Origin: Rhodospirillaceae bacterium
GTDB lineage: Bacteria; Pseudomonadota; Alphaproteobacteria; MPNO01; UBA2964
NCBI GenBank assembly: GCA_002709075.1
Contig: PAPV01000012.1
Coordinates: forward strand, 43,572 to 107,571
Length of the DNA stretch: 64,000 nt
Direction: 5' to 3'
Position 1 is the stretch's first letter. Each line of letters starts with the position of its first letter. The position numbers and the translations under genes were made by a program. Positions 112 to 1,781 of the stretch are shown piece by piece. The notes beneath the pieces are model-generated. The model was not told where the DNA came from and did not search any database. It saw only the letters and a list, made by a program, of their open reading frames with translations.

Positions 112-380
112 AATTAAGTGGAGGGCTTCTGTTGCCCGGTGCCCCCCGAACCGCGCTTGCCTATATATTAGGCAGCGAGAGCCAAGTCATTATCATTGGC
201 AATTGTAAATTAGCCCGATAACGGTGGTACCATGCCGAACGAAAAACCTGTCTTTACGCGCGCGTCGATCCTATTTCACCCCCATTGAAACAATAGTAAT
301 CTTAGTTTGGTGGAGGCGCCGGGTACCGCCCCCGGGTCCGCATCGTTTATTTCACATGTCGTTTATCGTCATAGCCAGTA
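112..380 (-). ncRNA. ssrA: tmRNA, circularly permuted two-piece alphaproteobacterial type
   Basis: Minus strand: acceptor piece ending ...GGACCCGGGGGCGGTACCCGGCGCCTCCACCA (CCA end at 308), short spacer, then coding piece starting GGGGGTGAAATAGGATCGACG at 283. GGGGGTG pairs with the CGCCTCC preceding ACCA (7-bp acceptor stem). Tag frame GCC AAT GAT AAT GAC TTG GCT CTC GCT GCC TAA = ANDNDLALAA* at 200..168. Outer ends approximate. Confidence 0.93.
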
Positions 381-451: not shown

Positions 452-1246
452 GTGCGGCAATATCATCAACTCCTACGTCATGTGCTTGAAAATGGAACAA
501 AAAAAAATGATAGAACCGGAACGGGAACTAAAAGTGTTTTCGGATATCAAATGCGTTTCGATTTGTCCATGGGGTTTCCTATTTTAACCACAAAGAGGCT
601 ACATCTTAAATCAATTATTCATGAGCTTCTGTGGTTTCTAAAAGGAGACACAAACATTGGTTATTTGAGCAAAAATGGGGTGAGGATATGGGATGACTGG
701 GCTGACAGTAACGGTGATCTCGGGCCTGTTTATGGAGCACAATGGAGGTCTTGGCCATCACCAAACGGTACTCAAGTTGATCAGATTTCAGAGTTGGTTA
801 AAGGATTAATTGACCAACCCGAATCGCGGCGACATATAGTAAGCGCTTGGAATGTTGCTGATATTGAAAAAATGGCATTACCTCCATGTCATTGTTTGTT
901 TCAGTTTTATGTGGCTCAAGGAAAATTATCCTGTCAACTTTATCAAAGAAGTGCTGATATCTTCTTAGGAGTTCCCTTTAATATTGCGTCATATTCTTTA
1001 TTCACCATGATGCTTGCTCAGGTTACAGAACTTAATGTAGGAGAATTTATTCACACTCTCGGTGATGCACATATCTATCTTGATCACTTGGACCAAGTAA
1101 ATTTGCAGCTTTCACGGGAGCCCTATTCTTTGCCTCGAATGGTTATAAACGAGGGTGTGACAGACATTTTTGGTTTTAGTTACGATGATTTTATTCTTGA
1201 TAATTATCAATCCCACCCACATATCGCAGCATCAGTAGCTGTTTGA
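452..1246 (+). CDS. thyA: Thymidylate synthase
   Basis: Full-length 264 aa with [11 protein letters not shown] catalytic motif; GTG start. Confidence 0.97.
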
Positions 1247-1253
1247 CGTAAGC

Positions 1254-1781
1254 ATGATAAAAAAATCTCGTCTGTCCATTATCGTTGCTGTGGCTCAAAA
1301 TCGGGTTATAGGATGCGAAAACCATTTGCCATGGAGGCTTTCCAAGGATTTAAAAAACTTTAAACGTATAACACTCGGGAAACCAATGATCATGGGTCGC
1401 AAAACTTTCGAGTCGCTTGGCAGACCACTTCCGGGAAGACCGCATATCGTTCTAACACGGAACGGCAACGCTTCGTTCAAAAATGTCACATACGCCCCCA
1501 GTTTTAATGATGCGTTAGAAGCGGCTCGTTCTTTTGTTGAAAAGGAAAATGATGAAATAATGGTAATTGGTGGGGAGAATGTTTTTCGTGAGGCACTAAC
1601 GCAAGCGGATCGTATTTATCTTACAGAGGTACATATGAAAGCAGCCGGTGACGTTCGATTTCCGCATTTCAATCTTTCCGACTGGTTGGAAGTTTATCGC
1701 GAGTCATTCAATGCTTGTTCTAATGACACTTGCGATTATAGTTTCGTCACTCTTGATAGGGTTAATAAACCCACGGATTAG
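1254..1781 (+). CDS. folA: Dihydrofolate reductase
   Basis: IGCENHLPWRLSKDLKNFK and PMIMGRKTFESLGRPLPGR motifs; follows thyA. Confidence 0.96.
   Translation: MIKKSRLSIIVAVAQNRVIGCENHLPWRLSKDLKNFKRITLGKPMIMGRKTFESLGRPLPGRPHIVLTRNGNASFKNVTYAPSFNDALEAARSFVEKENDEIMVIGGENVFREALTQADRIYLTEVHMKAAGDVRFPHFNLSDWLEVYRESFNACSNDTCDYSFVTLDRVNKPTD

Follow-up and report, generated by a model that had tools for sequence, protein, structure and literature searches.

The 64,000-nucleotide stretch of Rhodospirillaceae bacterium DNA analysed here (the window) begins with the minus-strand gene sspB, upstream of which, on the same strand, lies a permuted ssrA gene for tmRNA, occupying 117-426 at its whole Rfam extent with leader. 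The earlier note had named the covariance model RF01849 (alpha_tmRNA) as the check on its reading, and the search proved decisive: the model matches 426-117 (minus strand) over its full length (model positions 1-355) with 262.3 bits and E=3.8e-75, a score far beyond chance (the gathering cut-off is 50 bits). RF04321, the model for permuted tmRNAs in general, also matches over its full length (154.6 bits, E=8.8e-31) and, independently, ARAGORN calls a permuted tmRNA* at 400-77 (minus strand) with the tag ANDNDLALAA. The range of 112-380 given beforehand named the right locus with approximate outer limits: the RF01849 match includes the leader, and the end at 380 was a guess. That the gene is missed by an ORF-based view is true but trivial, since the usual RNA-finding programs pick it up immediately. 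The genome, rated 99.89% complete, holds a single ssrA copy, and the gene is present in 25 of the 27 genomes from its order and in 275 of the 289 genomes sampled from its class.

The tRNA-like acceptor piece comes first in the direction of transcription (308-370, minus strand; its 5' limit, taken from the start of the RF04321 match at 370, is approximate). It is preceded by a leader hairpin with the core GCCAG-UUUA-CUGGC (374-389), found in the RF01849 structure line and by folding, and contains a T arm CCGGG-GGCGGUA-CCCGG (319-335) that appears in the structure lines of both models. Read directly from the minus strand, the acceptor 3' strand CGCCUCC (318-312) is followed by A311 and by an encoded CCA at 310-308. 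An intervening segment of exactly 24 nt (307-284), presumably removed, separates this end from the 5' end of the coding piece, GGGGGUG at 283-277, which pairs with CGCCUCC in a seven-pair acceptor stem: G-C, G-C, G-U, G-C, G-C, U-G and G-C. All that the earlier note had read here, namely a piece ending in CCA at 308, a spacer of about 24 nt, pairing of the two ends and the acceptor-before-coding order, was confirmed by the ARAGORN call, the terminal pairing and the order of the sequence itself. The third pair is G3-U70, formed by G281 and U314; a G3-U70 pair marks alanine acceptors for alanyl-tRNA synthetase. It is unchanged in 54 of 54 loci compared, and pairing of the stem is kept in nearly all of them with substitutions on both strands (CGCCTCC/GGGGGCG, CGTCTCC/GGGGACG, CGACTCC/GGGGTCG and CGGCTCC/GGGGCCG). 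Two apparent mismatches occur at one locus (L040), where the search pattern may have slipped register. Pair 6 is U-G in the window, whereas it is C-G in the other loci of the order.

The coding piece extends over 117-283 (minus strand; 3' end approximate). Following the RF04321 structure line, its PK1 region with the stem CGG/CCG lies at 222-237. The tag frame with its stop sits between PK1 and the 3' pseudoknot, at 200-168, and reads GCC AAT GAT AAT GAC TTG GCT CTC GCT GCC TAA, that is ANDNDLALAA and a UAA stop; the frame located by script and the ARAGORN call both bear out the tag read in the earlier note. A hairpin encloses the end of the tag and the stop codon (154-177; 95.7% of cells paired in 52 sequences), and the 3' pseudoknot, formed by CGGU/ACCG and GGGGGGC/GCCCUCC, occupies 120-153. 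In the alignment of 52 compact coding pieces, compensatory changes were found at two of the four CGGU/ACCG pairs and at all seven GGGGGGC/GCCCUCC pairs, with 99.7-100% of cells paired; for the tag hairpin, the 3' pseudoknot and the PK1 stem together the figure is 98.2%. Both-side changes in the hairpin and pseudoknot affect 10 pairs, as against 2.9 in shuffles and 0-1 with the strands slid, while the three PK1 pairs are invariant in the 52 sequences and are uninformative for covariation. Single-strand folding energy is unexceptional (z of -1.0 for the coding piece and -0.6 for the acceptor piece), as expected of an RNA that is pseudoknotted and made of two strands.

Both the length of the tag and that of the coding piece were considered as marks of a new variant and rejected, as each is shared all through the order and recurs in numerous further families of the class. 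Among the 25 loci of the order examined with ARAGORN, the tag is exactly ANDNDLALAA in 18, a 10-residue variant in three and 14 residues long in four, so that 21 of 25 genomes carry a 10-residue tag. Outside the order, a 10-residue tag was found in 23 of 96 class loci and a 12-residue tag in 44 of 96; these loci were drawn from the top-scoring hits listed, for the most part with a single locus per family, and the proportions are not unbiased. ANDNDLALAA itself recurs at three of the class loci outside the order (L084, L113 and L130). The earlier remark that the tag is as short as the 10-residue ANDENYALAA of E. coli is correct and unsurprising, 10 amino acids being the length that the paper on the tmRNA database gives as commonest for tags (PMC11915505). 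Most of the alphaproteobacterial coding pieces sampled belong to one of two length classes, of about 162-182 nt (around 165) and 199-221 nt (around 208), which differ in the stretch that follows the tag stop and precedes the 3' pseudoknot; the coding piece of the window, at about 165 nt, is of the compact class. As a separate observation, the four 14-residue tags of the order, ANDNVASQD[FHY]ALAA, all belong to one genus (g3; loci L014, L016, L018 and L021), of which other members carry ANDNDLALAA, so that tag length has changed by four codons within a genus.

The genes flanking ssrA and those encoding its partners were then considered. The next gene downstream of ssrA on the minus strand is sspB, which starts some 70 nt past the end of the coding piece (1-48, ATG at 48-46; genome place G000:C12:43167-43589); it runs beyond the window edge, continuing at L001:929-1432 (minus strand), with a product of 167 aa. 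The protein was assigned by Pfam PF04386 (135 bits, E=3.1e-39; E=4.9e-39 in the genome search) and is related to the solved SspB-type chains 2nys, 2qas and 2qaz. In characterised bacteria SspB is an adaptor that recognises ssrA tags. The genome also encodes SmpB (PF01668, E=6.5e-56) and ClpX (646 bits); with SmpB, SspB and ClpX all present, trans-translation and the tag-degradation route can be assigned. Upstream and divergent from ssrA are thyA (452-1246, plus strand) and a dihydrofolate reductase gene (1254-1781, plus strand). A same-strand sspB within 500 nt downstream of ssrA was found at all 23 loci of the order that offered sufficient sequence and at 71 of 94 loci elsewhere in the class, the latter again among best-scoring listed hits; at none of the loci surveyed does sspB lie downstream on the opposite strand. 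Scanning of the ssrA-sspB gap gave no minus-strand terminator and only weak, 9/12 promoter-like sites.

Two other explanations of the locus were weighed. It might be a decayed ssrA copy, for instance an attachment-site fragment left by an island, and not a working gene: tmRNA genes do serve as integration targets (PMC11915505), and the U-G at pair 6 of the acceptor stem departs from the C-G of the other loci of the order. A fragment of this kind is nevertheless extremely improbable and was rejected, given that the RF01849 match is full length with stem, tag and stop intact, that the copy is the only one in a nearly complete genome, and that its neighbour sspB is conserved with no island in between. 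Equally remote is the explanation that the tmRNA acts as an uncleaved precursor, one continuous RNA retaining the 24-nt segment. Against it, charging requires CCA as a free 3' end, the length of the spacer in relatives ranges freely from 3 nt to more than 100, as expected of discarded sequence, and the C. crescentus homologue works as two pieces (PMC3985003, citing Keiler 2000). We found no sequence evidence at the locus against a functional permuted ssrA. Judged from sequence, then, the locus is almost certainly a functional, single-copy ssrA of the alphaproteobacterial permuted type, working through the two-piece tmRNA route.

For this presumed two-piece tmRNA, the known behaviour of the family would imply the following course. 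Minus-strand transcription would yield one precursor, from which tRNA-processing enzymes would excise the 24-nt intervening segment (PMC3985003), leaving separate mature acceptor and coding pieces that would be held together by the connecting helices and by the acceptor stem of 7 bp. The CCA end would be charged at A308 by alanyl-tRNA synthetase, by way of G3-U70, and the charged RNA would enter stalled ribosomes with SmpB. ANDNDLALAA would then be templated behind the charged alanine to give A+ANDNDLALAA, and ClpX, with the help of SspB, would recognise the -ALAA end for degradation by ClpXP.

Two-piece tmRNAs typically have two pseudoknots, PK1 and PK2 (PMC3985003), and the tmRNA of the window departs in nothing from the described two-piece form or from the common tag length. 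Like the Caulobacter crescentus ssrA, the type of RF01849, it has the acceptor before the coding piece, an encoded CCA, G3-U70, the order PK1, tag, hairpin and 3' pseudoknot, and a tag that starts with ANDN and ends with AA; it differs in its compact coding piece of about 165 nt and its 10-residue tag, both widespread. With E. coli tmRNA (RF00023, ANDENYALAA) it shares the tag length, the -ALAA end and the presumed SspB/ClpXP route, whereas the E. coli RNA is one-piece with four pseudoknots (PMC3985003) and that of the window, a permuted RNA, has PK1 plus a single pseudoknot at the 3' end.

Matches were also seen in phage sequences. Rhodobacter phage RcRudolph (OP009285.1) carries a full permuted tmRNA (L146:2437-2851; 94.8 bits with RF01849 and 103.6 bits with RF04321) with the tag ANDNVRMDAQALAA, at a site annotated as hypothetical protein RCRUDOLPH_61; 33 nt of it are identical to the acceptor 3' region of the window. 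In addition, MT836065.1, an unannotated human faecal phage scaffold, has a 71% match to 64% of the ssrA query (L147:2001-2181), which could be an alphaproteobacterial tmRNA whose contig was entered under phage.

An alphaproteobacterium is expected to have such a gene, in permuted form and with a tag of this length; ssrA is here an ordinary feature, and its finding is routine annotation. Modest by-products, possibly useful, are the clear division of alphaproteobacterial coding pieces into two length classes and the strong, one-directional linkage of ssrA and sspB, for which no published statement was found in those parts of the open literature that were accessible, although one may exist. The adjoining of the gene for the tagging RNA and the gene for its adaptor suggests joint expression. 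It is conceivable, if on balance doubtful, that ssrA and sspB are transcribed as one unit in the order and across much of the class, the sspB mRNA arising when transcription reads through the tmRNA precursor. If this were true, tag and adaptor would be made together.
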